This document shows positions 17,178 to 64,000 of a DNA stretch of 64,000 nt, piece after piece (the stretch's first letter is position 1; every line of letters begins with the position of its first letter). A program made the position numbers and the translations under genes. The notes under the pieces are model-generated. The model ran no database searches. It was given only the letters and a program-made list of their open reading frames with translations, and was not told where the DNA came from. Source of the stretch: Dactylosporangium siamense. GTDB lineage: Bacteria > Actinomycetota > Actinomycetes > Mycobacteriales > Micromonosporaceae. Location of the stretch: contig NZ_BONQ01000081.1 in NCBI RefSeq assembly GCF_016862795.1, positions 186,001 through 250,000 of the forward strand. Direction: 5' to 3'.

Positions 17178-17210
17178 GCGTCCCGGCAACCCGCCTCAGG
17201 AGGCACCGCC

Positions 17211-18326: not shown

Positions 18327-18328
18327 CC

Positions 18329-19954: not shown

Positions 19955-19956
19955 CC

Positions 19957-21762: not shown

Positions 21763-21816
21763 GCGACGACCACCGCACGTCTCGGTACGCTGAGCCGGCG
21801 ATCAGGAGGAGGACGC

Positions 21817-46895: not shown

Positions 46896-46925
46896 CGCTC
46901 ACAGATCGCTCACATCCCGCTGTCG
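46896..46925 (+). promoter_or_regulatory. SARP-type direct repeats before the RiPP precursor
   Basis: CGCTCACA at 46896 and again at 46907, with a weaker third copy (CGCTGTCG) at 46918: an exact 11-base period. Heptamer or octamer repeats with 11-base spacing are the usual binding sites of SARP activators, and a SARP gene follows at 47442. Confidence 0.6.
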
Positions 46926-47042
46926 CCCGGCGTCGCCGGAGTGGAGTCGATGTGTGACGCCGGCGCGGTGGACTGGGCCGGCACGGGTGATCCGTGCACC
47001 GGTAGGACAGCCCGGCCGGGGAAGACACAAGGGAGTACACCC

Positions 47043-47240
47043 ATGATGCAGGACCGCACCGAGCTCGACCTCATCGCCGCGGAGATCCTCGCGCTGGAGA
47101 CCGAGACCTTCGCGATCGCCGACTACACCGACGTCACCGAGGCGATCCTCGCCTCGACGTCCAGCTCGGCCACCACGTCGACCACCAGCAGCACCACCTC
47201 GAGCACGAGCAGCGCCTCGACGACGTCCTGCTGCGGCTGA
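47043..47240 (+). CDS. RiPP (thiazolylpeptide-like) precursor peptide, 65 aa
   Basis: ATG 47043 (or 47046) with AAGGGAG seven bases before. Leader about 1-37: acidic helix LIAAEILALE then ETFAIADYTDVTEAILA, which resembles the F-x-(I/L)-A-D motif of thiopeptide leaders such as FEIAD/FELAD. Core about 38-65: 13 Ser, 10 Thr, two Ala, and the end C63-C64-G65, so 25 of 28 residues can be dehydrated or cyclised. I recall annotated thiazolylpeptide-type precursors with ETFEI-type leaders and Ser/Thr/Cys-rich cores, but this core has only two Cys. The substrate assignment follows from location, leader motif and the adjacent cyclodehydratase/dehydratase genes. The exact leader/core boundary is inferred. 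Confidence 0.85.
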   Translation: MMQDRTELDLIAAEILALETETFAIADYTDVTEAILASTSSSATTSTTSSTTSSTSSASTTSCCG

Positions 47241-47267
47241 CCCTGCACCTGGGCGCACCCGCGGGCT

Positions 47268-47300
47268 GACGACCGCCGCCGGGCTCCGGCGGCGGTCGTC
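47268..47300 (+). terminator. Strong hairpin after the RiPP precursor
   Basis: Perfect 14-base arms (47268-47281 and 47287-47300; GACGACCGCCGCCG) with a five-base loop, 27 bases after the precursor stop. No U-tract. It probably ends or attenuates transcription so that precursor is made in excess over the enzymes. Confidence 0.75.
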
Positions 47301-47441
47301 GCGTACCGCCGGGTAGCCCGCGGGTAGACGGTTCTGCGTACTTGCCACTGATTGATGGCGGTCGAAAGATACAGCCATGGATCACTTGGTCGCCACCGCG
47401 CGAGTGTCCACATCGGACTGTGCTGCCCCCGGCGGCGACAC

Positions 47442-49175
47442 ATGATTTTCCGGGTGCTCGGGCCGCTGTCGCTCGCCCGCGGCGAGGAGGCGGTGGTGCT
47501 GCCGCCGTCGAAGGTCGCCAGTCTCCTCGCGGCGCTGCTGGTCCGCCCCAACGAGGTCGTCTCGATCGGGACGCTGCAGGAGGCCGTCTGGGGCGACGAC
47601 CAGCCGGCCGCCGCCAGGGCGGCCCTGCAGACCTGCGCGATGCGGCTGCGTCAGCTGTTCGTCCGCCACGCGATCGGCGCTTCCTCCATCGAGACGGTGC
47701 CCGGCGGATACCGGTTCAACGCGTCGGGGGAGACAGCCGATCTGCTCCGCTTCCGCGAGCTGGCCCGGGCGGCCGAAGCGCAGAGCGACCCCGACCGGCA
47801 ACTGGTGCTGCTGGAGGACGCCCTGGCGCTCTGGCGCGGCCCGCTGCTGGCCAACGTGCCGTCCGGCAGCCTGCACCGCGACGTCGTGCCCCGGCTCGCC
47901 GAGGAGCGCCTGCGGGTCCTGGAACGGCTCTGCGACCTGAAGATCCGCCAAGGTCTGGCCGCGTCGGCGCTGGCGCAGCTCTGGGACGCCACCCGCGCGC
48001 ACCTGGGCAACGAACGGCTGGCGGAGCTGCTCATCGAGGCGCTGTACCGGACCGGGCGACAGGCCGACGCACTGGCCGAATACCGCCGGGTGAAACAGTT
48101 TCTCGCCGGCGAGCTCGGCGTGGATCCCGGCCCCCGGCTGCGCCAACTCGAGCTGAGCATCCTCGTGGGTGAGTCCCGGGCCGAACCGGTGAAGGCCGTC
48201 GCGGTCGCGGGCCCGGCCGAGTCCGCGCACCCCGGCGTCGAGCCGCCGCAGGGATTCCTCGGGCGCTCGGCGATCGCCGCATCCGTCGCCTCCCGGTTGC
48301 GCGCCGGGGCGGGGGTCGTGGTCCTGACCGGCCCGCTGGGCGCCGGCAAGACAGCCCTTGCCTGCCACCTGGCGGCCGCGGTGCGCGACGACTTCCCCGG
48401 TGGTCAGCTCCGGCTCGACATGCACCGGGCCGACGGCACGCCGGTGAGCGTCGAGGAGCTGACCGACCGGCTGGCCCGCCGGCCGCGCCCCGACCCGTCG
48501 CGGCGCGGCCTGCTGATCCTCGACGACGTCGCCGACGTGCGGCAGGCCCTCGCCGGCGCGCCGTTCTGGCCGCCCGGCGATGCGGTGCTGCTCACCAGCC
48601 GGTTCGGCCTCGCCGGGGTGATCGCGCGGTTCGGCGGGTCCATCGAGCGCGTCGGCGGGTTCACCCCGGCCGAGTCCGTCTCCCTGCTGTCAGCCATCCT
48701 CGGCCGCGAGAGGGTCGAGGCGGAGCCGGCGGCGACACAGGCCCTCGCCGAACTCTGCGACCACCTGCCGCTCGCGCTGCGCATCGCCGCCGCCAGGCTG
48801 CTGACCAGGACGGCGAGCCTGGCCGCGTCGGTCGCGTGGCTGCACGGCAACCCGATCGGCCGGCTGGCGCTGCCCGGCGACCCGGACATGACGCTGCTGG
48901 GCCGGTTGGACCGGGCGGTGCACCGGCTGGCGCCGCCGCTCGTCACCGCACTGCTCAGCCTCGGCACCCTCGACCGGGACCCGCTCGACCTGGCCGGCGT
49001 GGCACATCGTCTGCAGGTCACGCCCGACGCCGCCGAGGCAGTCCTGGACCAGCTCGCCGACGCCAGCCTGATCGAGGACCAGGCCGGGCAGTTCCGGATC
49101 CCGGGACTGCTGCGGCTCTACGCCCAGGCCTGCGCCGAGAACCTGCGATCCGACCCCACCCTCACTGCCGTCTGA
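47442..49175 (+). CDS. SARP (BTAD) family regulator with NB-ARC-like ATPase domain
   Basis: 577 residues from ATG 47442 (MIFRVLGPLS, the standard SARP start); the frame is open upstream from 47352. OmpR-like winged helix about 1-93, BTAD about 98-243 (LEDALALWRGPLL; ALYRTGRQADALAEYRRVKQFLAGELGVDPG), then a STAND-type NTPase with Walker A GPLGAGKT (297-304) and Walker B LLILDDV. It lacks the tetratricopeptide end of AfsR. It most likely activates the RiPP operon through 11-base repeats at 46896. Confidence 0.93.
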   Translation: MIFRVLGPLSLARGEEAVVLPPSKVASLLAALLVRPNEVVSIGTLQEAVWGDDQPAAARAALQTCAMRLRQLFVRHAIGASSIETVPGGYRFNASGETADLLRFRELARAAEAQSDPDRQLVLLEDALALWRGPLLANVPSGSLHRDVVPRLAEERLRVLERLCDLKIRQGLAASALAQLWDATRAHLGNERLAELLIEALYRTGRQADALAEYRRVKQFLAGELGVDPGPRLRQLELSILVGESRAEPVKAVAVAGPAESAHPGVEPPQGFLGRSAIAASVASRLRAGAGVVVLTGPLGAGKTALACHLAAAVRDDFPGGQLRLDMHRADGTPVSVEELTDRLARRPRPDPSRRGLLILDDVADVRQALAGAPFWPPGDAVLLTSRFGLAGVIARFGGSIERVGGFTPAESVSLLSAILGRERVEAEPAATQALAELCDHLPLALRIAAARLLTRTASLAASVAWLHGNPIGRLALPGDPDMTLLGRLDRAVHRLAPPLVTALLSLGTLDRDPLDLAGVAHRLQVTPDAAEAVLDQLADASLIEDQAGQFRIPGLLRLYAQACAENLRSDPTLTAV

Positions 49176-49188
49176 AACGGAGCCTCCA

Positions 49189-51279
49189 TTGAGCACTGCG
49201 TTCGAATCGGTTGCCGGCACCAGACCACGGATCCGGCGCGACACCCTGTTCACCGCGGCCTACGACGGCGTGCTGTTCCACAACTCCTCCGGCGGCTTCA
49301 AGATCACATCGTCGAGCGCCTATCGGCTGGCCGCGCTGCTGGTGCCGTTCCTCGACGGGTCCCGCACCGTGGCCGAGCTGTGCGCGAAGCTGCCCGACCC
49401 GCAACGCACCATGGTCGGCGAGCTGGTCGGCGCGCTGCTGTCGCGTGGCTTCGCCCGCGACATCCCCGCCGGCGAGGCCGATCCCGCCGCTGTCCTCGGC
49501 GCGGACGTGGCCAAGCGGTTCGCCGCGCAGATCGGTTACATCGACCACTACACCGACGGCGCACCGCACCGGTTCGCCGCGTTCCGCAACACCACCGCCG
49601 TGGTCGTCGGCGACGGCCCGATCGCGGAAGCGTGCGTCCTGGGCCTGGTCCGCAACGGGATGGCGCGGGTCGCCGTCACCGGTCACCACGACGGCAGGGC
49701 CGCCGCGGAGGCGGCAGAGCTGGACGCCGTGGTGCTGGACCGGCGGTGTCCCGAGCCCACCTGGGCAGACCTGGCCGACGCCGACATCGTGCTCGTGGCC
49801 GGGGGAGCGGACGCCGCACGGCGGACGCACCGCCTCCTCGCGGCCGGGATTCCCGCGGGCAAGACGCTGCTACCGGCGTGGACGTTCGGCCGCCGGGCCG
49901 TCGTCGGCCCGGCGGGAGGCGCCGGTCGCCGCGGCTGCTGGTACTGCGCCATGCTGCGGCTCACCGCCAACGACGACAGTGACGCCGCGGCTGAGATCTG
50001 GCGTGGCGTCGCGGTCGGCGGCCCGGCACCGGACACCGCGGCGGGTCCCCTCGCGGCGATGATCGGCAACCTGCTCGCCTTCGAGGTGTTCCGGCTCTCG
50101 ACCGGCGCCCTGCCGGCCGAGACCGATGGGCGGCTCATCGTGCAGGACCTCGAGTCCCTCGACGTCGTCAGCGAGGAGCTGCTGCCGCACCCGCGGTGCG
50201 TGTACTGCCCGACGGAGCCCGCGCCGGAGCTGCCGCGGCAGATCACCCTGGACGGGCCGCGGCCCGCCGCCGATGACGGCACCGACGCCGGGACCGATGC
50301 CGCCGCCGAGCAGCTGTCCGCCCGGGACCGCCTGGTCCAGCCGAGGATCGGGGTGTTCCAGCGGTACCAGGACGAGGACTGGGACCAGCTGCCGGTGAAG
50401 ATCGCGACCCTGGTGTTCACCGACCCGGACGGGACAGCACGACAGGTCAACGCCTTCGACGTGCACCACCTCGTCGGCGCGCGGACCCGGGCCCTGGCGC
50501 ACGCCGCCGTCACCTACGCCGACCGGCTCGGCGCGCCGCGATCCGGCATCGGTGCGACGGTCACCGGTGCGACGGTCACCGGCCGGTCGCTGATCCACCA
50601 CGGGCCGGTGGACGTGCCGCGCGCCCAGGTGGAGCCGTTCGGCGCGGCCAACGCGGGGCGGGTCGCCGAGCCGACCCGGGCCGGCGCCGGTGCCGGCTTC
50701 GACGCCGCCGCGGCGATCGCCGACGGGCTCTCCTCCGCGCTCGCCTACGCCGCGCTGCAGGGCGCCATCTGCGGTGCGGCGCCGTCGCGGGTGCCGCTGG
50801 CCGGCCTCGGCGAGGACCCGGAGCTGCGCTTCCTGACCAGGGCAGCGGTCAACCTCGGGGTCACCGCCGACCTGCTCGACCTCGCCGCGAGCGCCCCCGG
50901 CGGCGTCCACGTCCTGCTGGCCCGGTGCACCGAGCCGCGGGCCGGCGCGAAACTGTGGGCGCTCGCCGCCGGCCCGTCGTGGCGGGAAGCGGCCGTGCGG
51001 GCCCTCTGCGACCTGGTCGGGCAGGTCCAGCTGCGGCAGCAGTCGCCCGACCCGCAGGCCACCGATGGTCGCGACGAGTTCCTGACGGACTTCGACCCCG
51101 ACACCCTCGCGACGGCCGGCGTGGCCGCGGCGAGGATCGACGCCGTCGGCGCCTGGCAGGACGTCCTGGCCGCCCTTGCCGCGGCCGGGACGGACGTCGT
51201 CGTCGTCCCGACCGGCGGCGCCGACCTGCCGGCATACGGCCTGCACACGGTGCGCGTCGTGCTCACGGACCGGGCCTGA
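49189..51279 (+). CDS. RiPP E1-like/leader-binding partner with degenerate YcaO-like C-terminal half
   Basis: TTG 49189 (ACGGAG seven bases before), 696 residues. Residues about 18-92 form a winged-helix RRE (GFKITSSSAYRLAALLVPFLDG; TVAELCAKLP). About 135-345 is an E1/ThiF-like fold with two zinc knuckles, C250-x2-C253 and C337-x2-C340. This layout fits TOMM leader-binding partners (TIGR03882 or ocin-ThiF-like). Residues about 380-696 follow the order of a YcaO domain (RIGVFQRYQDEDWDQLPVKIATLVF; ... AAGTDVVVVPTGGADLPAYGLHTVRVVL) but the Glu/Arg ATP motifs are absent and the PxPxP tail is missing. It should deliver the precursor to the active YcaO enzymes. First gene of the operon proper. Confidence 0.82.
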   Translation: MSTAFESVAGTRPRIRRDTLFTAAYDGVLFHNSSGGFKITSSSAYRLAALLVPFLDGSRTVAELCAKLPDPQRTMVGELVGALLSRGFARDIPAGEADPAAVLGADVAKRFAAQIGYIDHYTDGAPHRFAAFRNTTAVVVGDGPIAEACVLGLVRNGMARVAVTGHHDGRAAAEAAELDAVVLDRRCPEPTWADLADADIVLVAGGADAARRTHRLLAAGIPAGKTLLPAWTFGRRAVVGPAGGAGRRGCWYCAMLRLTANDDSDAAAEIWRGVAVGGPAPDTAAGPLAAMIGNLLAFEVFRLSTGALPAETDGRLIVQDLESLDVVSEELLPHPRCVYCPTEPAPELPRQITLDGPRPAADDGTDAGTDAAAEQLSARDRLVQPRIGVFQRYQDEDWDQLPVKIATLVFTDPDGTARQVNAFDVHHLVGARTRALAHAAVTYADRLGAPRSGIGATVTGATVTGRSLIHHGPVDVPRAQVEPFGAANAGRVAEPTRAGAGAGFDAAAAIADGLSSALAYAALQGAICGAAPSRVPLAGLGEDPELRFLTRAAVNLGVTADLLDLAASAPGGVHVLLARCTEPRAGAKLWALAAGPSWREAAVRALCDLVGQVQLRQQSPDPQATDGRDEFLTDFDPDTLATAGVAAARIDAVGAWQDVLAALAAAGTDVVVVPTGGADLPAYGLHTVRVVLTDRA
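50551..50580 (+). repeat. Two 15-base tandem repeats
   Basis: GGTGCGACGGTCACC twice, coding GATVT twice, inside the degenerate YcaO-like half of the E1-like protein. Confidence 0.85.
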
Positions 51280-51280
51280 G

Positions 51281-53140
51281 ATGAGCCTGCGCATCACCGG
51301 GGCGCTCAGCGCGCTGCTGACCGACGACGCGCGGACCGGCGCCGTGCACGCGCTCGGGGTCAGCGACGAACGGACCACACCGGCGTCCGCGCTCGGGGTC
51401 GGGGTGAGCGACGAACGGGCCACGCCGGGGACCGCGCCCGCGCAGCTGCTGGTGTACGGCCGGCACGCGCTGCTGCTCGCACCGGCGGGCCCGCGCGGAT
51501 GCACCCGGTGCCTGGCCCGCCGGTGGCAGGCGGTCCGGCCGCCGGACCTGCGCGACGCGCTGGAACTGGGCGGCGACACGGTGGCGGCCGGGGACTGGCC
51601 GTACGCCGTCGCGTTCGTGGCCGACGCCGTGCGGGCACTGAACGCCGCGACCGTCGCCCAGACCGGCCCGCCCACCGTCTACGACCTGAACGTGGAGACG
51701 CTGCAGGTCGGCCGGGTCCCGCTTGTGCCGGACCCCGACTGCCCGCACTGCGGCCGGCGGACGCCGGACACGCCGACGGCACCGCGGCTCACCCCGACGC
51801 CCAAGCGGGCGCCGGACGCGTTCCGGACCCGCGACGCCGCCGACTACCCGCTGTCGCCGGCCGCGTTCGTCAACCCCGTCTGCGGCCCGCTGGGCGCGTC
51901 AGCGTGGCCCGACCACACGTCGACGTCGACGGCACCGGTGCACGGGGCCTTCCACCCCAGGGCCGGAAACCACCTGCGCGAGATGCTCTGGGGCGGGCAC
52001 GCGAACAGCTACAGTCGCAGCGTCCGGCTCGGCGTGCTGGAAGGGCTCGAACGCACCGCGGGGCTGCGCCCGGCGCACACCGCTGTGACCGCGACCCTGG
52101 ACGAGCTCGGCCCCGACGCGCTCGACCCGCGCACCTGCGGGTCCTACTCCGAGGAGTTCCACCGGCAGCACCCGCACATCAGGCGGTTCGCGCCGGACCG
52201 GCCGATCCCGTGGGTGCGGGGCTGGTCGCTGCGCGACGACCGGCCGATCCTGGTCCCCGAGGTCCTCGCCTACTACTTCTCCGCGCCGGTCGAGGAGCGC
52301 TTCGTCCAGGAGAACTCCAGCGGCTGCGCGTCCGGTGGCAGCCTGGTCGAGGCGGTCTACCACGGGCTGATGGAGGCGATCGAACGCGACGCCTTCGTGC
52401 TGGCCTGGTACGGCCGGCGGACCCTGCCCGAGATCGACCCCGCCACCAGCGGCCGCGTACAGACCCGGGTCATGGTGGACCGGCTGGAGATGTACGGCTA
52501 CCGCGCCCGGTTCTTCGACGCCCGGTGCACGTTCGACATCCCGGTCGTCACGGCCGTCGCCGAACGCATCGACGGCGGCTTCGGCACCCTGGCCTTCGGC
52601 GGCGGGGCGAGCCTCGACCCGGAGACCGCCATCGCGGCGGCCCTGTGCGAGATCGCCTCCGACGCGGTCATGGTCGGCGTCCGGGCCGCCGCCGACGAGG
52701 CGCGGCTCCGCGCGATGGTCGACGACTACGACCTGGTGTGGGGCCTGCACGACCATCCGCTGCTGTACGGCCTGCCGCAGATGCGCCGGCACGCGTCGTT
52801 CCTGCTGGACGCCCCGGCGCCGGCGCGCCCGGTCGGCGAGACCTACGCCGGGACCCGCCCGGCGCTCGACCTGCTCGACGACCTCGACCGTTGCGTGCGG
52901 ATGGTGACCGCGCAGGGGTTCGACGTGATCGTCGTGGACCAGACCACGCCGGAGCAACGCGACCTCGGCCTGCACACGGCCGGGGTGACGGTGCCCGGAC
53001 TGCTGCCGATCGACTTCGGCTGGCAGCGCCAGCGGGCCCTGAACATGCCGCGCCTGCGCACCGCCGCCCGCGACGCCGGCCTGGCCGGCAGTGCCCTGCG
53101 CGACGGCGACATCCACCGAGTTCCGCACCCCTATCCGTGA
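51281..53140 (+). CDS. YcaO cyclodehydratase 1
   Basis: ATG 51281, one base after the previous stop; 619 residues. N-terminal part about 50-165 carries a zinc ribbon (C74-x2-C77 and C154-x2-C157). The YcaO fold, about 180-619, has both ATP-site motifs intact: SVRLGVLEGLERTAG near 247-261 and EAVYHGLMEAIERDAF near 357-372 (E365, E368, R369). It ends VPHPYP, the PxPxP-type C-terminus needed by azoline-forming YcaO enzymes. The enzyme phosphorylates the amide backbone and forms azolines from Cys, Ser or Thr of the precursor. Residues 25-52 hold an imperfect internal duplication (GVSDER twice). Confidence 0.92.
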   Translation: MSLRITGALSALLTDDARTGAVHALGVSDERTTPASALGVGVSDERATPGTAPAQLLVYGRHALLLAPAGPRGCTRCLARRWQAVRPPDLRDALELGGDTVAAGDWPYAVAFVADAVRALNAATVAQTGPPTVYDLNVETLQVGRVPLVPDPDCPHCGRRTPDTPTAPRLTPTPKRAPDAFRTRDAADYPLSPAAFVNPVCGPLGASAWPDHTSTSTAPVHGAFHPRAGNHLREMLWGGHANSYSRSVRLGVLEGLERTAGLRPAHTAVTATLDELGPDALDPRTCGSYSEEFHRQHPHIRRFAPDRPIPWVRGWSLRDDRPILVPEVLAYYFSAPVEERFVQENSSGCASGGSLVEAVYHGLMEAIERDAFVLAWYGRRTLPEIDPATSGRVQTRVMVDRLEMYGYRARFFDARCTFDIPVVTAVAERIDGGFGTLAFGGGASLDPETAIAAALCEIASDAVMVGVRAAADEARLRAMVDDYDLVWGLHDHPLLYGLPQMRRHASFLLDAPAPARPVGETYAGTRPALDLLDDLDRCVRMVTAQGFDVIVVDQTTPEQRDLGLHTAGVTVPGLLPIDFGWQRQRALNMPRLRTAARDAGLAGSALRDGDIHRVPHPYP

Positions 53141-53149
53141 GGTGAGGCG

Positions 53150-54772: not shown

Positions 54773-54779
54773 ACCGGCG

Positions 54780-57497
54780 ATGACTACGATGCTCCCCGCG
54801 ACCCGAACGCCCGCACAGACATCCACCCGGCTGCTGGGCCGGTACTTCGCCGTGCGGGTCGGCGGCCTGCCCTACGACACCGTCGCGGCGCTGCGATGCG
54901 AGCAGGCCACCGGCTGCGCCGCGGAGATCCTGGACCTGGAGGCGCAACTCGCCGCCGCCGCCGAGCCGATCGGCGACCTGCTGCACGACCTGATCGGCGC
55001 GAACGACGACAGCGGATCCCGCCGTGACCTGCTCGCGCTGCGCCGGAAGATCTTCCAGGGCAGGCTCCCGGCCGACCCCGACGCCGCGCTCGCCGCGGTC
55101 CTCGCGGTCGACCCGGCGGCGGCCGCGCAGGTCCGGGACTGGCTGACCCGCCGCCGGCACCTCACCGACCGGCAGCGGGACCTCGGCGCGCTGCTCGACA
55201 CCGACGTCGCCGCGACCCGCGCCGAGCTGTGGCGGCTGTGCGACGACCCGCGGCTGCGCGCCGGGATGCAGGTCGCCTCGCCGGCGCTGGACGAGCAGCT
55301 GGTGGCGTTGACCGGCCGCACCACCGCGTCGCCGGCGAAGAAGCTGCGCCGGGTGGAGCGTTCGGTGCTGTCCTATCTGTACCGGACCGCCTGCAAGACG
55401 AGCCCGTTCAGCTGGTTCACGGGCATCGGCGTGGGTGAGTTCAGCACCACCGCGGGCGGCGACGTCGAGTTGGCCGTGCCGACGACCTGGCGCAGCCACG
55501 TCCGGCTCAACGTGGTCGCGCTGACCCGGATCGTGGACGCCATCTGCGCCGACCCCACCCGCCGCGGTGACCTGCCGATGGTCCTGAGCCCGGGCCTGCG
55601 ACAGGACCCGGAGCGGATCCGCTACGTGCGCCGCTGGGTCACGCAAGGCGACGACCGGGCCCCCGTCAGCTTCGACTCGATCCAGGACGGCCTGTTCTAC
55701 CTGCGCCGCAGCGGCCTGCTCGACGGGCTCACCGGCCTGCTGCAGCGCGGCGGGACCTGGCGGTGCGCGGACCTGACCGCCTGGCTGCGCGGGCAGACCC
55801 AGGCGGACCCGCAGCGCTGCGACGAGTACGTGTCGATCCTGCTGCGGCTCGGCGTCCTGCAGATCGACGGGTTCGCCGTCGACGTGCACACCCCCGACCC
55901 GCTGCGGCAGCTGCGCCACTTCCTCACCACCCTCGACCGGCCGTGGGCCGGCAATCTGGCGCTGCGGCTGGCCGAGCCGATCGCCCTCGTCGAGGCGTTC
56001 CGCGACGGTGGACTCACCGACCGCCGCGCGGCGACGCACCGGCTGCAGGAGGCGCTCCGCGACGTCCTGGACCACCTGGGCGCCGGGGCGGTCAAGCTGC
56101 CGCCGGCGCTGCTGTACGAGGACTGCCGCGTCGGCGGTGACCTGTCCCTGCCGGCCGGTCCGTGGCGCCGGTTCGCCGAACACGAGCTGGCCGCCGCCGA
56201 GGCGGTGCTGCCGGCGTTCGACCTGACGCTGCCGCACCGGATCATGTTCCACGGCTTCTTCGCCGCGCGGTACGGCGCCGGCGGGCGCTGCGACGACCTG
56301 CTGCGCCTGGTCGAGGACTTCCACGAGGACCTGTACGACCAGTACCTGATCAGCACCGCCGACATCAGGCCGTTCGCCGAGGACGGCACCTACCGGCCGG
56401 AGGAGAACTGGCTGGGCCGCACCGAGCTGTCCCGGCTCGACCGGGTCCGGCAGGACCTCGCCGATCACCTGCGCTCGGCCGTGCAGGCGGCGCCCGGCGC
56501 GGCGGAGCTCCGGCTGGATCCCATGGCGCTGCACGGGATCGGCGCCGGTCTGCAGGACCTGTTCGGCGGTTTCCGGCCGCAGAGCCACCTCGTCCAGGTG
56601 GTGCCACGGGCCGAAGGGCCGCTGCTGGTGCTCAACCAGTCGCTGGGTGGGGTGTCGTTCCCGTTCAGCCGGTTCACGCACTGCTTCGACGACACCGCTC
56701 CGTCAGTGGGGCAGCTGCGGGCCCAGGCCGCCGACGTGGCCCCGGCCGGCGCCGTGTTCGCCGAGGTGACCGGCGGCCCGGTGACCACCAACCTCAACCT
56801 GCACGGGCAGCTCACCGACTACGTCATTGTCTGCCCGGGTGAGACCAGCCTCGCGCCGCCGGAGTGCCAGATCCCGCTGTCGGACCTGTACCTGCTGCAC
56901 GACGCGGCCAGCGACCGGGTGGTGCTGCGCTCCGCGCGGCTGGGCCGGGAGGTGGTCCCGGTCTACCTGGGTTACCTGGTGCCGATGGCGCTGCCGCAGC
57001 TGCACCGCACCCTGCTGTTGCTGTCGCCGACGTCGCTGGCCACGTTCGACGTGTGGCGCGGCGTGCCCGCGCCCCCGCCGGTCGACGGCGTGGTCGCGCG
57101 CCCCCGGGTCCTGATCGGCGACCTGGTGGTGAGCCGGCGCAGCTGGTCCACGACGGTCGCGGTGCTGCCCCGCCGCGGTGAGGGCGACACCGACGCCGCC
57201 TGGTTCCTGCGGTGGCAGCGGTGGCAGCGGGCGCACCGGCTCCCGGCGCAGCTGTTCGCGACGGTCCACAGTGGATTCGGCGGCCGGCCGAAGCCGCAGT
57301 ACGTCGACTGCGGCAGCTACCTGTCGCTGGTCGCGCTCGAGTCGTCGCTGGACGCGAACGCCGACCGCGTCGTGTTCCGCGAGATGCTGCCGGCCGGCGA
57401 CCAGCTGACCGCCGGATCGGCCCAGGGGCGGCACGTCACCGAGTTCGTCATCGAGACCTTCCCTTCCCCCCACCGTGCTGGAGCCGACGATGAGTAG
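54780..57497 (+). CDS. Lantibiotic dehydratase N-terminal (glutamylating) protein
   Basis: 905 residues. Lant_dehydr_N-type: RYFAVRVGGLPYDTVAALR opening, KKLRRVERSVLSYLYRTACKTSPFSWFTGIGVGEF (about 187-221), and Lys/Arg-rich glutamyl-tRNA contact motifs, then a long helical body ending NPDRVVFREML-like. In split LanB systems (TbtB, GodF) this protein activates Ser/Thr with glutamate from Glu-tRNA; the elimination is made by the next gene. Its last eight bases overlap the start of that gene. Confidence 0.9.
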   Translation: MTTMLPATRTPAQTSTRLLGRYFAVRVGGLPYDTVAALRCEQATGCAAEILDLEAQLAAAAEPIGDLLHDLIGANDDSGSRRDLLALRRKIFQGRLPADPDAALAAVLAVDPAAAAQVRDWLTRRRHLTDRQRDLGALLDTDVAATRAELWRLCDDPRLRAGMQVASPALDEQLVALTGRTTASPAKKLRRVERSVLSYLYRTACKTSPFSWFTGIGVGEFSTTAGGDVELAVPTTWRSHVRLNVVALTRIVDAICADPTRRGDLPMVLSPGLRQDPERIRYVRRWVTQGDDRAPVSFDSIQDGLFYLRRSGLLDGLTGLLQRGGTWRCADLTAWLRGQTQADPQRCDEYVSILLRLGVLQIDGFAVDVHTPDPLRQLRHFLTTLDRPWAGNLALRLAEPIALVEAFRDGGLTDRRAATHRLQEALRDVLDHLGAGAVKLPPALLYEDCRVGGDLSLPAGPWRRFAEHELAAAEAVLPAFDLTLPHRIMFHGFFAARYGAGGRCDDLLRLVEDFHEDLYDQYLISTADIRPFAEDGTYRPEENWLGRTELSRLDRVRQDLADHLRSAVQAAPGAAELRLDPMALHGIGAGLQDLFGGFRPQSHLVQVVPRAEGPLLVLNQSLGGVSFPFSRFTHCFDDTAPSVGQLRAQAADVAPAGAVFAEVTGGPVTTNLNLHGQLTDYVIVCPGETSLAPPECQIPLSDLYLLHDAASDRVVLRSARLGREVVPVYLGYLVPMALPQLHRTLLLLSPTSLATFDVWRGVPAPPPVDGVVARPRVLIGDLVVSRRSWSTTVAVLPRRGEGDTDAAWFLRWQRWQRAHRLPAQLFATVHSGFGGRPKPQYVDCGSYLSLVALESSLDANADRVVFREMLPAGDQLTAGSAQGRHVTEFVIETFPSPHRAGADDE

Positions 57498-58530
57498 CCC
57501 GACGGCCGAGCCCGGATCGTGGCTCGGCATGCACATCTTCTACGGCGCCAACGCCCGGCCGATGGTGCTCGAGTGCGTCCGGCCGCTGGTGGACGAGCTG
57601 ACCACCCTGGGCCTGCTGGACTCGTACTTCTACCTGAACTACTGGCAGGAGGGCCCGCACGTCCGGCTGCGCCTCAAGCCCCGCACCGCCGCCGACGAGC
57701 CCGCGGTGCGGGCGGCCGCCGAAGCCGCCGTCCAGCGGTTCCTGGCCGACCGCCCGGCCCTGTACGAGATGAACGCCGGCTTCCGCGGTGAGCTGCACGA
57801 GATGCTGTTCCGCCTGGAATACCCCAACGGTGGTCCGCCGGAGCTGCTCGCCGCCGACGGCACCGCGGCGATGCAGCCCAACAACTCCTTCGCCTACCGG
57901 CCCTACGAGCCGGAGTTCGGCAAGTACGGCGGCGCGCCGGGGGTCGCACTGGCGGAGTGGCACTTCCGCCACTCCAGCGATCTGGTCATCGACCTGGTCG
58001 CGACGATGAACCTGCACCTGCGCCCGGTGGTCCTCGGCATCGCCAGCCAGCTGATGCTGGTGATGGCGGGCACGTTCCTGCCCGGCCGCGACGACCTGGC
58101 CACCTTCTTCGACGCCTACCACCAGTTCTGGCGGCACGCGTTCGGCGGCGCCGGCTTCGTGGACAACATCGACTACGACAGCATGTACGAACGCTCCGCC
58201 GCCGACCTGGACCGGCGCTTCCGGCCCATCCTGACCGCACTGGAGCAGGGCGAGCCGCAGCGGCTGCCGGTGTTCCTGCGCGGCTGGGCCGAGCACGCCG
58301 CGCAGCTTCGCGACCGCGCGTCGGCGCTGGCCGGATCGGGTGCGCTGACCTTCGCCTACCCCGAGGGCGCCGAGCCGGTCACCGTCACCGACCCGCACCA
58401 GGCGCTGATCCGGCTGCTGTCGCCGTACCTGCACATGACCAACAACCGGCTGTACGTCACGCTGCGCGACGAGGCGTACCTGGCGTACCTGATCGGCCGG
58501 GCGCTGCGCGAGACGGTGCCGGCGCGGTGA
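57490..58530 (+). CDS. Thiopeptide-type elimination domain protein (SpaB C-terminal-like)
   Basis: 346 residues from ATG 57490 (frame opens at 57475). Matches the thiopeptide-type bacteriocin biosynthesis family: GSWLGMHIFYGANARPMVLECVRPLV, YFYLNYWQEGPHVRLRLKP (about 45-63) and LLSPYLHMTNNRLYVTLRDE near the end. It should remove glutamate to give dehydroalanine and dehydrobutyrine. In cyclic thiopeptides a second, related protein makes the six-membered ring; only this one is present here. GTGA-type overlap with the next gene. Confidence 0.88.
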   Translation: MSSPTAEPGSWLGMHIFYGANARPMVLECVRPLVDELTTLGLLDSYFYLNYWQEGPHVRLRLKPRTAADEPAVRAAAEAAVQRFLADRPALYEMNAGFRGELHEMLFRLEYPNGGPPELLAADGTAAMQPNNSFAYRPYEPEFGKYGGAPGVALAEWHFRHSSDLVIDLVATMNLHLRPVVLGIASQLMLVMAGTFLPGRDDLATFFDAYHQFWRHAFGGAGFVDNIDYDSMYERSAADLDRRFRPILTALEQGEPQRLPVFLRGWAEHAAQLRDRASALAGSGALTFAYPEGAEPVTVTDPHQALIRLLSPYLHMTNNRLYVTLRDEAYLAYLIGRALRETVPAR

Positions 58531-59702
58531 CCGCCACGACCGGTGTCACCGGCGACCCCCAGGACCTGCTGGACGCGCGCCCGCGAGTGCGGCCCGACCT
58601 GCTGATCTCCGCGGCGATGCGGCGCGGCCCCGCGGAGATCCACCTGGTGAAGATCCGCGGCGGCCAGGTGTTCGAGGTCGCGGCGAAGGAGTGCTTCCTG
58701 ATCCGCCACCTCGACGGGCACCGCTCCGTGGCCGACGTCGGCGACCTGTACGCGGCCCGGTTCGGGCGGCGGCTCGGCCCGGCGCAGTGGTCGCAGCTGC
58801 TGTGGCTGCTGCACCAGCGGGACCTGCTGGCCGCGGACGGCCAGAGCCGGCCCCGGCCGGTGCCCCGGCCGGGACTGCGCCGGCTCGCCGGAGCGTTCCG
58901 GTGGGCGTTCTCGGTGCCGGCCGGCCTCGCCGCCACGGCCGCGCTGCTGGCCCTGTACACCGCCGTCGGGGTGCGGTCACCGCACCTGTGGCAGGCCGCG
59001 CGGCCGGCGCTGCACGACTGGCGTTCGATCGCCGGGGTCGTCGCGGTCTGCTACCTCAGCGCGATGCTGCACGAACTGGCGCACGGCGTCGCCGCCACCC
59101 ACTACGGCTGCGCCGTGGTGCGGATCAACCTGTTCCGGTTGACCTGCCAGGTCGAGGACTACCAGTACCTGCCGGCCCGGGCCCACCGCGTCGCCGTCGC
59201 GGCGGTGGGCGGCGTGCTGAACGCGCTCGTCACGGCGCCCTTCGTCCTGGCCTGGGCGCTGAGCGCACCCGGGTCGGCCGGGCACCGGTTCGCGGCCGCG
59301 GTCGCCCTGGCCGGCACGGCGCAGAGCCTCGTCAACTACGTGCCGATCGCACCGCTGGACGGCTACAAGATGCTCAGCCACCAGCTCGGCATGCTCGCCC
59401 TCGGCCCGGAGAGCCGCCGCTACCTGTGGTCGCGCCCGCACCGGTGGGTGACGCGCCGGGGACCGGTGTACCCCGGCCCGGCCCGGATCGCGCTCGGCCT
59501 GTACGGCACCGCGTGGCACGCGGCCGCGGCGGCCGCCGGCACCACCGCCGCCGTCGCGGGCGGCCGGCTGCTCGAGCCGGCACTCGGCCGGGCCGCCTAC
59601 GCCGCGTCGGCGGCGGCGGTCGTCCTGACGTTCACCCTGTGGCTCGCCAGTCAACCCGGACTACGCCCGGCACGCAGCCGGACCCACCAACCCGTCACAT
59701 GA
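58527..59702 (+). CDS. M50-like membrane protease with N-terminal PqqD/RRE-like domain
   Basis: GTG 58527 overlaps the previous stop; 391 residues. About 28-105 is a small winged-helix (LVKIRGGQVFEVAAKECFLIRHLDGHRSVADVGDLYAARFG) like PqqD, the fold that binds RiPP leaders. A membrane segment (128-147) leads to the active site: H182-E-L-A-H186 and the second metal ligand D278 in PIAPLDGY, as in site-2-type and peptide zinc metalloproteases. Several further membrane spans follow. It is a good candidate for leader removal, or for immunity; no other peptidase is present in the operon. Confidence 0.83.
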   Translation: MTATTGVTGDPQDLLDARPRVRPDLLISAAMRRGPAEIHLVKIRGGQVFEVAAKECFLIRHLDGHRSVADVGDLYAARFGRRLGPAQWSQLLWLLHQRDLLAADGQSRPRPVPRPGLRRLAGAFRWAFSVPAGLAATAALLALYTAVGVRSPHLWQAARPALHDWRSIAGVVAVCYLSAMLHELAHGVAATHYGCAVVRINLFRLTCQVEDYQYLPARAHRVAVAAVGGVLNALVTAPFVLAWALSAPGSAGHRFAAAVALAGTAQSLVNYVPIAPLDGYKMLSHQLGMLALGPESRRYLWSRPHRWVTRRGPVYPGPARIALGLYGTAWHAAAAAAGTTAAVAGGRLLEPALGRAAYAASAAAVVLTFTLWLASQPGLRPARSRTHQPVT

Positions 59703-59713
59703 GAGGCGCGGCG

Positions 59714-60652
59714 TTGAAGACAAAGGCAATGCAGGCAGCGACTTCGCGGACAGCCGCGGAGACAGCCATCGAGGTCGAGCGGCTGCACAAGTCCTACGGC
59801 GCGGTCCAGGCCGTGACCGACGTGTCCCTGACCGTGCCGCGCGGCGAGTTCATCGGGCTGCTCGGGCCCAACGGCGCCGGCAAGACCACCCTCATCGAGA
59901 TGATCGAAGGTCTCCGGGTGCCCGACAGCGGGACGGTGACCGTGCTCGGTCGCCGCCCGTACCCGCGCGATCCGGCGCTCCTGCCGCTGATCGGTGTGCA
60001 GACGCAGAAGTCGGCGTTCTTCCCGCACCTGACCGCCGTCGAGCATCTGGAGACGGTGGCCGCGTTCTACGGCCTCGACCGCGGCGCCGCGCAACGGGCC
60101 CTCGCGCAGGTCGGCCTCACCGACTCGGCCGGCGTCCGGGTGTCGAAGGTGTCCGGCGGGCAGCGGCAGCGCCTCGCGATCGCCACCGCGCTGGTGCACC
60201 AGCCCGAGGTCATCTTCCTCGACGAGCCGACCGGGGCGCTCGACCCGCAGGCCCGCCGCGATCTGTGGACGATGCTGCGGCAGCTCAAGGCGGCCGGCCG
60301 GACCATCGTGTACACCACCCACCACCTCGACGAGGCCGAGGAGCTCTGCGACCGGGTCGCCATCCTGCACCAGGGCCGGATCCTGACGCTCGGCACCCCG
60401 CACGAGCTCATCGGCCGGTCCGGGGTCGGCAGCCGGGTGCTGCTGCCGGCCACGGCGATGTCCGCCGAACAGGCCCGCACCCTGGACGGCGTCGACGACG
60501 CGACCGTCGGCACGGACCTGCTCACCCTGCACACCCGGCACCTGGCCCGGGTCCTGGCGGCCCTGGGCGACCACGGCGGCCTGGACGGCGTCCAGACCAG
60601 GTCGGCCACCCTCGAAGACGCGTACCTGGAACTGATCGGAGCACAGTCGTGA
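59714..60652 (+). CDS. ABC transporter ATP-binding protein (DrrA-like)
   Basis: TTG 59714 has GAGAGG seven bases before; ATG 59699, overlapping the previous stop, is the alternative. About 312 residues. Walker A LGPNGAGKTTLIEMIEG, Q-loop VQTQKSAFFPHLTAVEHLETV, signature VSGGQRQRLAIATALV, Walker B VIFLDEPTGALDP, switch His in YTTHHLDEAEELCD. The C-terminal DrrA-like extension (VLLPATAMSAEQARTLDGVDD) is typical of antibiotic exporters. Pairs with the next permease for export or self-protection from the RiPP. Confidence 0.92.
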   Translation: MKTKAMQAATSRTAAETAIEVERLHKSYGAVQAVTDVSLTVPRGEFIGLLGPNGAGKTTLIEMIEGLRVPDSGTVTVLGRRPYPRDPALLPLIGVQTQKSAFFPHLTAVEHLETVAAFYGLDRGAAQRALAQVGLTDSAGVRVSKVSGGQRQRLAIATALVHQPEVIFLDEPTGALDPQARRDLWTMLRQLKAAGRTIVYTTHHLDEAEELCDRVAILHQGRILTLGTPHELIGRSGVGSRVLLPATAMSAEQARTLDGVDDATVGTDLLTLHTRHLARVLAALGDHGGLDGVQTRSATLEDAYLELIGAQS

Positions 60653-61404
60653 CCGCGTTCGCGGCCCTCACCCGGGCCTCCTTCAAAGCCAACACCCGCG
60701 ACACCGCGACGATCTTCTTCACCTTCGCCTTCCCGCTGATCTTCCTGACCATCTTCGGCCTGATCTTCAAGGGCCAGCGGGTCGAGGAGACCGGCAACGG
60801 CTACATCGACTTCATCGCCCCCGGCGTCCTGGCGTGGGGGCAGGCCAACGCGGCCTCGTTCGGGGTCGCCTTCTCCCTGATGCAGTGGCGCAAGGACGAC
60901 CTGCTGCGCCTGATCCGGCACACTCCCGCCCCGCTGAGCGATGTGGTGCTGGCGCGGCTGGCGATCGCGGTCGGCGTCGGCGTCGCCCAGTGCGTGCTGT
61001 TCATCGGGGTGGCGACCATCCCCCTGTTCGGCATGCACGTGTCCGCGCGCTGGCCGCTCGTGCTGCCCGTGATGCTGCTGGGCATCGCGGCGTTCCTCGG
61101 GCTCGGGCTCATCATCGGTGCCGTGTCGAAGACCCCCGAGGCGGTCAGCGCCATCGGCAACTGCGTCGTGATCCCGATGGCGTTCCTGTCCGGCGCGTTC
61201 ATCCCCGTGGAGCTCATGCCCGCCTGGCTGCAGGACGTGTCGTACACGATGCCGCTGCGCTACCTCCTCGACGGCCTCGTCTACGCCCTGGCCGGCGCGG
61301 GTGAGGCCCGCGACTACTGGATCGCCTGCGGGGTGCTCACCGGTTTCGCCGTGGTGTTCACGGCGATCGGGCTGCGCCTGTTCAAGTGGAGCAACGAGGA
61401 GTGA
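60649..61404 (+). CDS. ABC-2 type transporter permease (DrrB-like)
   Basis: GTG 60649 overlaps the ATPase stop; 251 residues with six membrane segments. Family pattern FFTFAFPLIFLTIFGLIFKG (about 25-44), LRLIRHTPAPLSDVVLARL (about 85-103, the coupling helix of ABC-2 permeases), and FLSGAFIPVELMPAWLQDVSYTMPLRYLLDGL near 184-215. Exporter half for the RiPP. Its 3' end overlaps the second YcaO gene by four bases (GTGA). Confidence 0.9.
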   Translation: MTAFAALTRASFKANTRDTATIFFTFAFPLIFLTIFGLIFKGQRVEETGNGYIDFIAPGVLAWGQANAASFGVAFSLMQWRKDDLLRLIRHTPAPLSDVVLARLAIAVGVGVAQCVLFIGVATIPLFGMHVSARWPLVLPVMLLGIAAFLGLGLIIGAVSKTPEAVSAIGNCVVIPMAFLSGAFIPVELMPAWLQDVSYTMPLRYLLDGLVYALAGAGEARDYWIACGVLTGFAVVFTAIGLRLFKWSNEE

Positions 61405-63344
61405 CGACGTCAGCGACCCGGCCGGCCGCGCAGGCAGCGAACCGGCCGGCAACGACCACGGCCGCGGCGGCCCCGCTCAGCGCCGCCGCGGCCCGGCTCC
61501 GGCGGGCACTCGACGCCCGCTGGCTCGCGGATCCTCGTGACGGTGGGCGGCGACCGGCCGTGGTGACCCTCGGCGCCACCGACCTCACGAACGATCCCGA
61601 CCCGGCCCGCCGGGACGCCAACGTGCACCTGTCCGCGGGCAGCGTCGTCATCGGCCCCTGGGGAGGGCCCGCCGGGCCGGACGGCGCGTGTGGGCACTGC
61701 TTCGGGGTGCGGTGGCAGCGGATGCGCGGGCGCACCGAGCGTGACGCGCTGGAGACCGGCCGGCACCTCACCGCCGTGGGCGACTGGCCGGAGCTGCCGC
61801 CGTACCTCGTCGACGCCGTGTGGCAACTGTTCCGCGCGATCGCCGGCACGCCACCGACGGCCGGCCGCTACCTCGATCCGGACAGCGACGCGCTGGCCCG
61901 GGTCACCTCGCTGGACCTCGCCAGCCTGCGCACGGTGACCGTGCCGCTGCTGCCGGAGCCGCTGTGCCCGAGCTGCGGCCGCGTCGAGACCGACCGCCCG
62001 GCCCGCTGGAGCGCCCTGCAGCCGCGCCCGAAACCGGCACCGGACACCTACCGCCTGCACGACGCGCACGAGTACCGGCTCCCGGTCGGTGCGCTGGTCA
62101 ACCCGGTCAGCGGTGCCATCGGCGCCGGGGCGCTGATGAACCCGGCCATGCCCACGACGTCGCCGGTCACCGGGGGCGTGTTCATCCGCGGCTACGCCGG
62201 CCTGCTCGACGTCGCCTGGAGCGGGCACGCCGCCGGCTTCGGCGACAGCCTGCGGCTGGCCTACCTGGAAGGGCTGGAACGGTACGCGGGCACGCACCGC
62301 CGCCGCGCCGGGCCACCGCTGGTCGCTGCCTACGCCGACGTCGCCGACCGGGCGCTGGACCCGGCCAGCTGCGGCGTCTACCCGGACGAGACCTACGACG
62401 TCGACCCGCTCGTGCAACGCTTCGACCCGACCCGACCGATCCCGTGGGTGTGGGGGCACGTCGTCGGCACCGGCGAACCGATCATGGTGCCGCGGCGGCT
62501 GTGCTTCTACAGCTCCGGGGCACCCCACGACAACTTCGTGCTCAGCTCCTCCAACGGCTGCGCCACCGGCGGCTGCCTGGAGGAGGCCATCCTGTACGGC
62601 CTGCTGGAGCTGATCGAACGCGACGCGTTCCTGCTCGGCTGGTACACCCGGCAGCCGTTGCGCCGCATCGACCTCGACACGTGCGCGAGCACCCACGTCC
62701 GGTCCATGATCGACCGCAGTTCGCTGGCCGGCTACGAGGTGCTCGCGTTCGACAACCGCACCGACCTGACCGTGCCCGTGGTCACGACCCTGGCCGTCCG
62801 GCACGACGGTGGCCCGGGACTGCTCGCCTTCGCGGCGGGCGCGCACCTCGACCCCGCCCGGGCGGTCGCCGCCGCACTGTCCGAGACCCTGTCCTACATC
62901 CCGGTCAAGGCCCGCACGACCCGCCGGCGGCGGGCCCAACTCGACGCGATGGCCGACGACTACACCCTCGTGCAGACCGTGCACGACCACGCCGACCTGT
63001 TCGGCCTGCCGAGGATGCGCGAGCACGCCGCGGACTACCTCGCCGACCGGCCGCTCGAGGCGATGAGCGACGTCTACGGCGCGCCCCGCACCCCGACCCA
63101 TGACCTGCTGCACGACCTGCAGCAGGTGCTGGACGAGCTGCACGCCAAGGGCCTCGACGTCATCGTCGTCGACCAGAGCACCCCCGAGCAGCACGCGATG
63201 GGCCTGCGCACGGTGTGCACGATCGTGCCCGGCCTGCTGCCGATCGACTTCGGGTGGCTGCGGCAGCGGGCGCTGAGCCTGCCCCGGCTGCGGGAGCGGC
63301 TGGCCGGTGCCGAGCCCCGGCTCGTCCCGCACCCGTTTCCGTGA
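61401..63344 (+). CDS. YcaO cyclodehydratase 2
   Basis: GTG 61401; 647 residues. N-terminal zinc ribbon C97-x2-C100 and C189-x2-C192, then a YcaO fold (about 212-647) with intact ATP motifs SLRLAYLEGLERYAG (about 283-297) and EEAILYGLLELIERDAF (E403, E406, R407), and a C-terminus VPHPFP. It parallels YcaO 1 over its whole length, including DVIVVDQ(S/T)TPEQ and GLLPIDFGW, so it arose by duplication. The separate location after the transporter genes suggests a different step or residue class, for example oxazolines from Ser/Thr versus thiazolines from Cys. Confidence 0.92.
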   Translation: MTTSATRPAAQAANRPATTTAAAAPLSAAAARLRRALDARWLADPRDGGRRPAVVTLGATDLTNDPDPARRDANVHLSAGSVVIGPWGGPAGPDGACGHCFGVRWQRMRGRTERDALETGRHLTAVGDWPELPPYLVDAVWQLFRAIAGTPPTAGRYLDPDSDALARVTSLDLASLRTVTVPLLPEPLCPSCGRVETDRPARWSALQPRPKPAPDTYRLHDAHEYRLPVGALVNPVSGAIGAGALMNPAMPTTSPVTGGVFIRGYAGLLDVAWSGHAAGFGDSLRLAYLEGLERYAGTHRRRAGPPLVAAYADVADRALDPASCGVYPDETYDVDPLVQRFDPTRPIPWVWGHVVGTGEPIMVPRRLCFYSSGAPHDNFVLSSSNGCATGGCLEEAILYGLLELIERDAFLLGWYTRQPLRRIDLDTCASTHVRSMIDRSSLAGYEVLAFDNRTDLTVPVVTTLAVRHDGGPGLLAFAAGAHLDPARAVAAALSETLSYIPVKARTTRRRRAQLDAMADDYTLVQTVHDHADLFGLPRMREHAADYLADRPLEAMSDVYGAPRTPTHDLLHDLQQVLDELHAKGLDVIVVDQSTPEQHAMGLRTVCTIVPGLLPIDFGWLRQRALSLPRLRERLAGAEPRLVPHPFP

Positions 63345-63350
63345 CCGGCT

Positions 63351-64000
63351 TCAGTTGGTCGGCGGGGTGGCGTTCGGCCCGGGCAGCCGCTCGCGGCCGA
63401 GCGCGTCCTCGCGGATGCGCTCGCCGTACTGGCCACGGTGCCGGATCGGCCGGCCGACCTCGGCATACTTCTGCTTCGCCCGCTCCAGATGGGTCCGCAC
63501 CGTGCCCGGGGCGATGCCCAGCTGGCGGCCGACCGCGTCCACGGTCATCCCGCGGCCGTACGCCACCAGCACCTCGTGCTCGCGGGGAGTGAGCTCCGGC
63601 CGGTCCGGCCGGTCGTCGCGGCCCAACCAGAACGCGTGTTCCGTCGTCATCGGCGAGTCGCCCCGCGCGACCGCCCGGATGACGTCGGCGAGCGACGTGA
63701 GGTTGGCGGTCTTCGCCACGTAGGCCACCGCGCCGGCCTCGGTCGTCGTCAGGATGTAGGACAGGTCGGGCACCACCGTGATGACGATGACGGTGAAGCC
63801 CGCATTGACCAGCCGCACCACGTTGTCCACCGGGTCGGAGAAGTCCTCCAGGTTGAGGTCCAGCAGCACGATCCGGGCCGAGACGGTCTGGCTGAGGAAG
63901 TCGTCGACCGACGACGCGGTCGCCGCCAGCCGGATGTCGGGCATCCCCGAGATCCAGGTCGCCATGCCCTCCAGGAGCATCCGGTCGTTGTCGATCGCCG
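63351..64000 (-). CDS. LuxR-type response regulator, N-terminus cut by window
   Basis: The frame runs through the right edge; the receiver begins AIDNDRMLLEGM there, so the real start lies outside. Receiver domain: phosphoacceptor D in ARIVLLDLNLEDF, and a Thr/Lys end AYVAKTANLTSL. The C-terminal NarL-type helix-turn-helix is LTPREHEVLVAYGRGMTVDAVGRQLGIAPGTVRTHLERAKQKYAEVGR. The ATG at 63980 is inside the receiver and is not the start. It is convergent with the RiPP operon, six bases away; a histidine kinase, if any, is beyond the edge. Confidence 0.88.
   Translation of the reverse strand, partial: AIDNDRMLLEGMATWISGMPDIRLAATASSVDDFLSQTVSARIVLLDLNLEDFSDPVDNVVRLVNAGFTVIVITVVPDLSYILTTTEAGAVAYVAKTANLTSLADVIRAVARGDSPMTTEHAFWLGRDDRPDRPELTPREHEVLVAYGRGMTVDAVGRQLGIAPGTVRTHLERAKQKYAEVGRPIRHRGQYGERIREDALGRERLPGPNATPPTN

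Follow-up and report, generated by a model that had tools for sequence, protein, structure and literature searches.

A two-YcaO gene cluster with a split LanB in Dactylosporangium siamense and its predicted linear, dehydrated polyazole product

Organization of the gene cluster

The window analysed here is a stretch of 64,000 nucleotides from Dactylosporangium siamense (NCBI RefSeq assembly GCF_016862795.1, contig NZ_BONQ01000081.1, positions 186,001 to 250,000 of the forward strand; the source genome comprises 12.7 Mb in 296 contigs). It contains, at positions 47043-63344 and entirely on the + strand, a gene cluster whose product is probably a linear, dehydrated polyazole of the class of ribosomally synthesized and post-translationally modified peptides (RiPPs), made by a pathway in which an F protein would serve two YcaO enzymes and a SagB dehydrogenase before a split LanB acts. 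The genes are arranged in the order precursor, SARP, F protein, YcaO1, SagB, LanBN, LanBC, M50 protease with a RiPP recognition element (RRE), ABC ATPase, ABC-2 permease and YcaO2 (Table 1).

A preliminary description of this DNA had proposed a coupled operon headed by a SARP, with enzymes of the thiopeptide and goadsporin type, and both proposals are borne out, the second by the profile matches of each gene and the first by the junctions between them. F and YcaO1 are separated by 1 base, YcaO1 and SagB by 9, and SagB and LanBN by 7; the LanBN and LanBC frames share 8 bases; and a GTGA overlap occurs at the LanBC/M50, ATPase/permease and permease/YcaO2 junctions. These junctions, together with the relatives, determined the choice of the starts of YcaO1 (51281), LanBC (57490) and YcaO2 (61401). 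All frames in the cluster are open, the clusters of relatives begin with the SARP gene, and the three matches to PF02624 in the genome (E <= 0.001) each fall within the cluster.

Table 1. Features of the cluster and its right-hand neighbour, in window coordinates
Feature	Position	Strand	Supporting matches
Precursor peptide gene, 65 aa	47043..47240, ATG 47043 or 47046	+	TIGR03892 29.5 bits, over cut-off
SARP-type regulator	47442..49175, start possibly upstream from 47352	+	BTAD PF03704 3.7e-36; NB-ARC under cut-off
F protein, ocin-ThiF-like, with an RRE at the N-terminus, an E1-like centre and a pseudo-YcaO at the C-terminus	49189..51279	+	TIGR03693, TIGR03882
Pseudo-YcaO domain of F protein	50572..51261	+	six-frame match 34.4 bits; hhalign 98.1, E 1.2e-13
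YcaO1 cyclodehydratase, fused E1-like C domain and YcaO, C-terminal PHPYP	51281..53140	+	TIGR03604 293 bits (cut-off 219), TIGR03882 84 bits
SagB-type azoline dehydrogenase	53150..54772, start TTG 53150 or ATG 53165	+	TIGR03605 131 bits; PF00881
LanB N-terminal (glutamylation) protein, LanBN	54780..57497	+	PF04738 140 bits
LanB C-terminal (elimination) protein, LanBC	57490..58530	+	PF14028 135 bits; residues aligned with NisB
RRE and M50-type intramembrane metalloprotease, with HELAH and LDGY	58527..59702	+	NF041824 75 bits, below cut-off 300; Pfam M50 20.7, below 27.2
ABC ATPase	59714..60652, start 59714 or 59729	+	DrrA-like TIGR01188 225 bits, below cut-off 312
ABC-2 permease	60649..61404	+	PF01061 107 bits
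YcaO2 cyclodehydratase, fused C domain and YcaO, C-terminal PHPFP	61401..63344, alternative start 61386	+	TIGR03604 313.5 bits, TIGR03882 92 bits
LuxR-type response regulator	63351..64000	-	PF00196 over, PF00072 under cut-off; then histidine kinase beyond window (HATPase_c)

The precursor peptide and its core

The telling element of the cluster, which was left out of the text of the preliminary description, is the tail of the precursor, ASTSSSATTSTTSSTTSSTSSASTTSCCG, whose 29 residues comprise 13 Ser, 10 Thr, 2 Cys, 3 Ala and 1 Gly. The calculated mass of this 29-mer without modification is 2636.055 Da, a value that would change with the site of cleavage. The leader carries LETETF, which has the form Lx4F described for the RREs of actinobacterial thiopeptides (PMC12710340), and Lx4F is present in 14 of 14 leaders from hand-chosen representatives. 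When compared with models of thiopeptide precursors, the peptide passes the cut-off of TIGR03892 (29.5 bits against 25) and does not reach that of NF033400 (23 bits against 30); it has no Pfam match. A precursor that is 83% identical occupies the same place before the SARP gene in Micromonospora matsumotoense (locus L068; numbers with L and G are our handles for loci and genomes), with the core ASTSSSATTSTTSSTTSSTSTASSTSCCG. The 29 core codons of the two genes include 19 that are identical, 8 that are synonymous and 2 that are changed, both of the latter being Ser/Thr swaps, a pattern that points to purifying selection on the core. The model match, this homologue and the codon comparison together rule out a chance open reading frame or a chance run of Ser and Thr.

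The position of the precursor gene varies among the relatives. It also lies before the SARP gene in L084 (genome G577), while many relatives have a 23-residue core, for example AGSTSCSSTSTCSSTTSTTSCCA, in a gene placed tail-to-tail with YcaO2, and the lineage of L081-L083 has 3-4 precursors between the permease and YcaO2. In L081, L082 and L083 there is also a SARP-like gene beyond YcaO2 on the opposite strand. A pattern search found no precursor in four loci, L037, L073 and the incomplete L044 and L048.

Among 10 distinct cores of the same 23-residue length, columns 9, 12, 15, 16 and 18 are occupied by either Thr or Cys, Cys is constant in column 21, column 22 is Cys or Ser, and all 10 cores have Ser at columns 5, 10, 13, 17 and 20, in an alignment in which columns 2-8 are possibly misaligned and the Cys at columns 9, 15, 16 and 18 comes from a single core, that of L043. 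Cys cannot be dehydrated by a LanB, though it can be cyclised, and for this reason the columns in which Cys and Thr swap may be read as ring sites, with the fixed Ser as likely sites of dehydroalanine (Dha). Sister clusters with a single YcaO were also seen (L045, L046 and L047, and loci among L016-L025); L045-L047 have several tandem precursors, and their cores too are nearly all Ser, Thr and Cys.

Recurrence of the layout

Genome mining for the ordered gene set, which the preliminary description had called for, located the order F-YcaO1-SagB-LanBN-LanBC-M50-ABC-ABC-YcaO2 in 20 further loci (L068 breaks off within YcaO2, the rest of which is in L048), with some genes seen in part or as two tblastn pieces (L042 and L069 for M50; L073 and L074 for SagB; L075 for SARP; L085 for SARP, F and YcaO1). 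The layout had been described as one not recognised as characterised. This holds insofar as no described product, gene order, or core or leader string was found in what was available of the open-licence literature, but the layout is not peculiar to this genome, since it recurs in these loci, and two YcaO genes also occur together on the Actinomyces oris plasmid described below.

In the taxonomic order, 22 of 298 genomes matched a YcaO2 search at E <= 1e-60; 7 of the 22, including that of the window, carry the two YcaO genes some 10 kb from each other on a single contig, and in an eighth (G008) they lie on separate contigs. A pattern-limited scan yielded 20 related loci, 17 of which reach YcaO1, L055, L058 and L064 being incomplete. 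In one genus, inferred to be Micromonospora, 43 of 160 genomes match, and the YcaO2 type (at least 670 bits) is present in 18 of the 160, with a second copy 10-12 kb away in 18 of 18. A survey of the class found a YcaO pair within about 12 kb in 14 of 394 genomes, window included (the second copy in G488 has an internal TGA). M. matsumotoense, M. chokoriensis, Streptomyces globisporus, S. parvus and S. niveus are among the relatives with a species name; S. eurocidicus has two such clusters (L073, L074), and the layout occurs in other actinomycete families besides those of Micromonospora and Streptomyces.

The A. oris plasmid NZ_CP116225.1 (415 kb) carries, at 8490-21839 of L080, genes for an F protein, a YcaO, a nitroreductase-family protein, a LanB, a PF14028-type protein, a hypothetical protein with HELCH, four precursors with Ser-rich cores, and a second YcaO. 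In a 32-row tree its YcaO1 joins the YcaO1 rows (99/99), and its YcaO2 is not resolved, lying nearest the YcaO2 rows on a very long branch. A shared old origin of the pair appears likelier than an independent one.

The F protein and the leader-binding domains

The F protein scores 78 bits against TIGR03693, below the cut-off of 561.9, and 65.8 bits against TIGR03882, above the cut-off. The best structural match of its N-terminal RRE profile is the PbtF structure 8t19 (2e-16), and the profile of the whole protein matches TruD, LynD and YcaO structures in the PDB (YcaO 6ci7 at 6.6e-5). It therefore has the N-terminal RRE and E1-like region by which an ocin-ThiF protein is recognized, in a cluster whose leader offers LETETF. 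The N-terminus of the M50 protein, in which the invariant residues of the protease are kept across the 12 sequences compared, matches the RRE of F (hhalign 95.7, E 9e-9) and matches PqqD weakly (E 0.17), which upholds the earlier claim of a leader-binding domain on both the E1-like protein and the protease. A profile comparison of the N-termini of YcaO1 and YcaO2 with the RREs of F or M50 found no match (probability 0.1-0.4); these N-termini match the E1-like part of F, with probabilities of 94.8 and 66.8. With no RRE of their own, the two YcaOs should both rely on F.

The C-terminal third of F is homologous to YcaO, as is seen in a six-frame search (34.4 bits, E 6e-8, 50572-51261) and in an hhalign comparison of six F tails with six YcaO domains (probability 98.1, E 1.2e-13, compared with 0.1 for a control against LanBC). 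PF02624 was not listed by hmmscan for the F protein of the window, unlike in the six-frame search of the genome, and was listed for 1 of 6 F members scanned. In the alignment, the Glu and Arg motifs of YcaO1 and YcaO2 are replaced in this pseudo-YcaO domain. The preliminary description had interpreted it as a third, eroded YcaO. The homology is real, but the idea of a separate third copy decaying in the operon is ruled out: the domain is the C-terminal part of F, and it is present in single-YcaO clusters as well. Since the F proteins of three such clusters (L045-L047) bear the same tail, it is taken as a probable feature of the F family.

The two YcaO enzymes

Both of the separate YcaO proteins, described earlier as intact, are indeed so by sequence. 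Each exceeds the cut-off for SagD-type cyclodehydratases and has a fused C domain and a PHP(F/Y)P tail, and five YcaO motif patterns are passed in 31 of 32 YcaO1 and YcaO2 sequences, both copies of the window included (the YcaO1 of L076 misses one). In a tree, YcaO1 (16 rows, 99/100) and YcaO2 (16 rows, 94/99) form two groups with largely mirrored branching; the single-YcaO sequences (14 rows, 99/93, two pairs of which are one gene each) stand beside YcaO1, and the more distant rows L026-L028 fall outside all three groups. The tree is unrooted and does not separate a gain of YcaO2 from its loss among the single-YcaO sisters. Across 15 clusters, the matrix of YcaO1 identities correlates with that of YcaO2 (r 0.93), and 0 of 5000 permutations gave so high a value. 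Identity between the two inside one cluster is 42-46%, which, together with the two old groups in the tree, rules out a recent duplication. YcaO1 and YcaO2 are thus old paralogues that have long been inherited together.

Such co-inheritance and matched divergence would also suit an obligate heterodimer, in which one YcaO is the catalyst and the other a structural partner, with no division of ring types between them; that F already uses a pseudo-YcaO would give this arrangement a precedent. It is nevertheless judged unlikely, because one would expect the catalytic motifs to decay in a partner without catalysis, as they did in the F domain, while 31 of the 32 sequences of the two YcaOs have retained them together with a PxP-type tail at the C-terminus. 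Two non-redundant cyclodehydratases are accordingly preferred here to a catalyst with a partner.

Some YcaO enzymes make a thioamide or an amidine, and it might be supposed that one of the two forms azolines while the other makes such a different backbone change; both YcaOs of the window do match the McrA thioamidation model, far below its cut-off. This is improbable given that both pass the SagD-type cut-off with the fused C domain and the PHP(F/Y)P tail, and that a TfuA-type gene is not among the cluster genes scanned. The lactazolicins provide a contrast, having, as described, a second YcaO without the PxP motif (PMC7136475).

The split LanB: elimination or pyridine formation

The PF14028 protein, LanBC, could in principle be either an elimination protein or a pyridine synthase, and in the latter case the product would be a thiopeptide. 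Its best match in NCBIfam is the TbtD/PbtD pyridine synthase model, its best match in the PDB is TbtD, and the precursor matches a thiopeptide model. The score of 99 bits is, however, far below the model's cut-off of 325, while the protein lies above the cut-off of the broader TIGR03891 (77.7 against 48.45). Its residues R64, R66 and H320 align with R784, R786 and H961 of NisB, which along with R826 we take to be the residues serving elimination; an HMTNNR stretch stands at NisB H961, and HVRLR is found where TbtD has HLRIY. PF14028 has a single match in the 12.7 Mb genome, in the cluster, so that if this protein formed a pyridine, nothing else would be left for elimination. The two-YcaO genomes searched have exactly one PF14028 gene in the cluster in 20 of 20 cases, which is the sole one in the genome in 8 of 20, the others having more elsewhere. 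On balance the identification as a pyridine synthase is rejected, a thiopeptide product being very improbable, and LanBC is read as a putative elimination protein. With elimination-type residues retained in the single PF14028 protein of the genome, neither a pyridine synthase nor a classical thiopeptide is expected. That the cluster is silent or decayed is hardly credible in view of its open frames, its kept motifs and the purifying selection on the core.

Comparison with known systems

The closest kin of the cluster are the goadsporin, sulfomycin and coryneazolisin pathways, and it is identical to none of those tested. It has the YcaO, dehydrogenase, F protein and split LanB of a thiopeptide pathway, and it lacks a separate [4+2] pyridine synthase. 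With goadsporin, as described in PMC5303826 and PMC4603692, it shares a YcaO, a dehydrogenase and a split LanB, the absence of a pyridine synthase, and a linear peptide of azoles and Dha, which is here a prediction. The goadsporin pathway, with its core of 19 residues, has one YcaO (GodD), a peptidase-ABC protein (GodB) and an acetyltransferase (GodH), whereas the present cluster has two YcaOs, an F protein, and an M50 protease with an ABC-2 transporter; no acetyltransferase was found among the cluster and neighbouring genes scanned. Judged by enzymes, then, it is probably no thiopeptide cluster, and judged by gene set no goadsporin cluster, though as far as dehydration it resembles the pathways of goadsporin and of the thiopeptides that use an F protein. 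Spongiicolazolicin A of Streptomyces sp. CWH03, another linear azole-containing peptide, compared by its published description, has 29 residues (PMC8838263), the length of the tail found here, and its pattern has been likened to blocks in which one of every three residues is left unmodified (PMC11583998).

Two distinct cyclodehydratases in one pathway, SulC and SulD, are described for sulfomycin (PMC10634744), and the present cluster likewise encodes two distinct YcaOs with intact motifs. The sulfomycin and berninamycin pathways make pyridine macrocycles, the sulfomycin type being a 35-membered thiopeptide, whereas no pyridine synthase is found here; the related geninthiocin and berninamycin clusters, as described in PMC6306032, have split G and E proteins, whereas in the present cluster each YcaO is a fused C-D protein and LanBC has no PF14028 companion. 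The predicted coryneazolisins (PMC4603692) share two D proteins, LanB-like dehydratases, the lack of a [4+2] enzyme, and a core of Cys, Ser and Thr. They are set apart by their description, which pairs a discrete D protein with a fused one and has Ile interrupting the core, while both D proteins here are fused (TIGR03882 on both) and the core is without Ile. The thiopeptide and heterocycloanthracin systems of TbtF, PbtF, TclI and HcaF share the RRE-bearing ocin-ThiF scaffold, with an Lx4F leader for TbtF (PMC12710340), and are described with one cyclodehydratase per scaffold instead of the two per scaffold found here. Two YcaO/dehydrogenase pairs with a LanM-type dehydratase occur in a predicted dehydrazole cluster (PMC10676384), and Brevibacterium has clusters for linear azole-containing peptides with one or two YcaOs, whose available description mentions no LanB (PMC5719810).

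Proposed pathway and its implications

In the proposed pathway, the SARP would switch on the operon, and F would bind LETETF by its RRE and use its E1-like and pseudo-YcaO parts to offer the core to YcaO1 and YcaO2. A precedent is TclI, an F protein described as presenting the core in turn to the cyclodehydratase and the dehydrogenase (PMC10634744). YcaO1 and YcaO2 would differ in the residues on which they form azolines or in the type of ring formed, one making mainly thiazolines and the other (methyl)oxazolines, a division of labour that we infer; SagB would oxidise the azolines, and LanBN and LanBC would then convert the remaining Ser and Thr to Dha and dehydrobutyrine. Goadsporin glutamylation has been seen only with the azole-bearing peptide (PMC5303826), and by analogy the rings would be expected to precede dehydration here. 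The M50 protease would bind the same leader and cleave it, and the ABC pair would export the product. The composition of the cores agrees with two ring types: two-YcaO cores, when compared with those of the single-YcaO sisters (24 against 18 distinct cores), have a median Cys content of 0.14 against 0.26 and a median Thr content of 0.29 against 0.16 (p about 2e-5 each), and such Cys-poor, Thr-rich cores fit a YcaO2 that widens the pathway to oxazolines.

Several points tell against this interpretation. The comparison of cores ignores kinship between clusters that are related, the ranges of Cys overlap (0.07-0.39 for two-YcaO and 0.14-0.32 for single-YcaO cores), and L043, from a two-YcaO genome, opposes the trend with a Cys content of 0.39. 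No residue was linked to ring specificity, and support for the YcaO2 grouping falls to 57/12 in the 32-row tree that includes A. oris. The nearest NCBIfam and PDB matches of the PF14028 protein are pyridine synthases, and Lys150 stands in it at the position of NisB Arg826. The RRE and pseudo-YcaO folds, finally, are predictions from profiles.

More tentatively, the cluster may represent a distinct and widespread class of actinomycete RiPPs, characterized by a synthetase of three YcaO folds (a pseudo-YcaO scaffold with two non-redundant YcaOs) that turns nearly every core residue into an azole or a dehydro residue and so yields an almost side-chain-free linear polyazole. Pathways that combine azoles with dehydro residues must settle the fate of each Ser and Thr, and the core here offers hardly anything else, with a single scaffold for two YcaOs. 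The natural core variants, with Cys/Thr swaps at some places and fixed Ser at others, constitute a ready test of the rule applied to Ser and Thr. The frequency of the family in culturable Micromonospora and Streptomyces makes it workable at once.

Neighbouring genes

The cluster is flanked on the left by an M20 peptidase gene and the gene for a CBM2-bearing cellulase, and on the right by those for a response regulator and a histidine kinase. The LuxR-type regulator (63351-64000, - strand) and the kinase (4352-6198 of L004) have counterparts beside YcaO2 in M. matsumotoense (L048) that are 86% and 73% identical, and a further 10 related loci gave no match to them, although the sequence of one, L074, extends just 0.6 kb past YcaO2; the two are possibly an extra regulator of the subclade formed by the window and M. 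matsumotoense. Farther to the left, an odd open reading frame (38819-40897, + strand) fuses a sigma-70 region 2 (1.5e-10) to a right-handed beta-helix (2.5e-10), and a locus for the degradation of xylan and arabinan (12394-23331, + strand) encodes a GH43 protein, a GH10-lectin-GH62 fusion, a GDSL lipase with a ricin-type lectin, a GH43-CBM6 protein and a protein with an alpha-L-arabinofuranosidase C-terminal domain.

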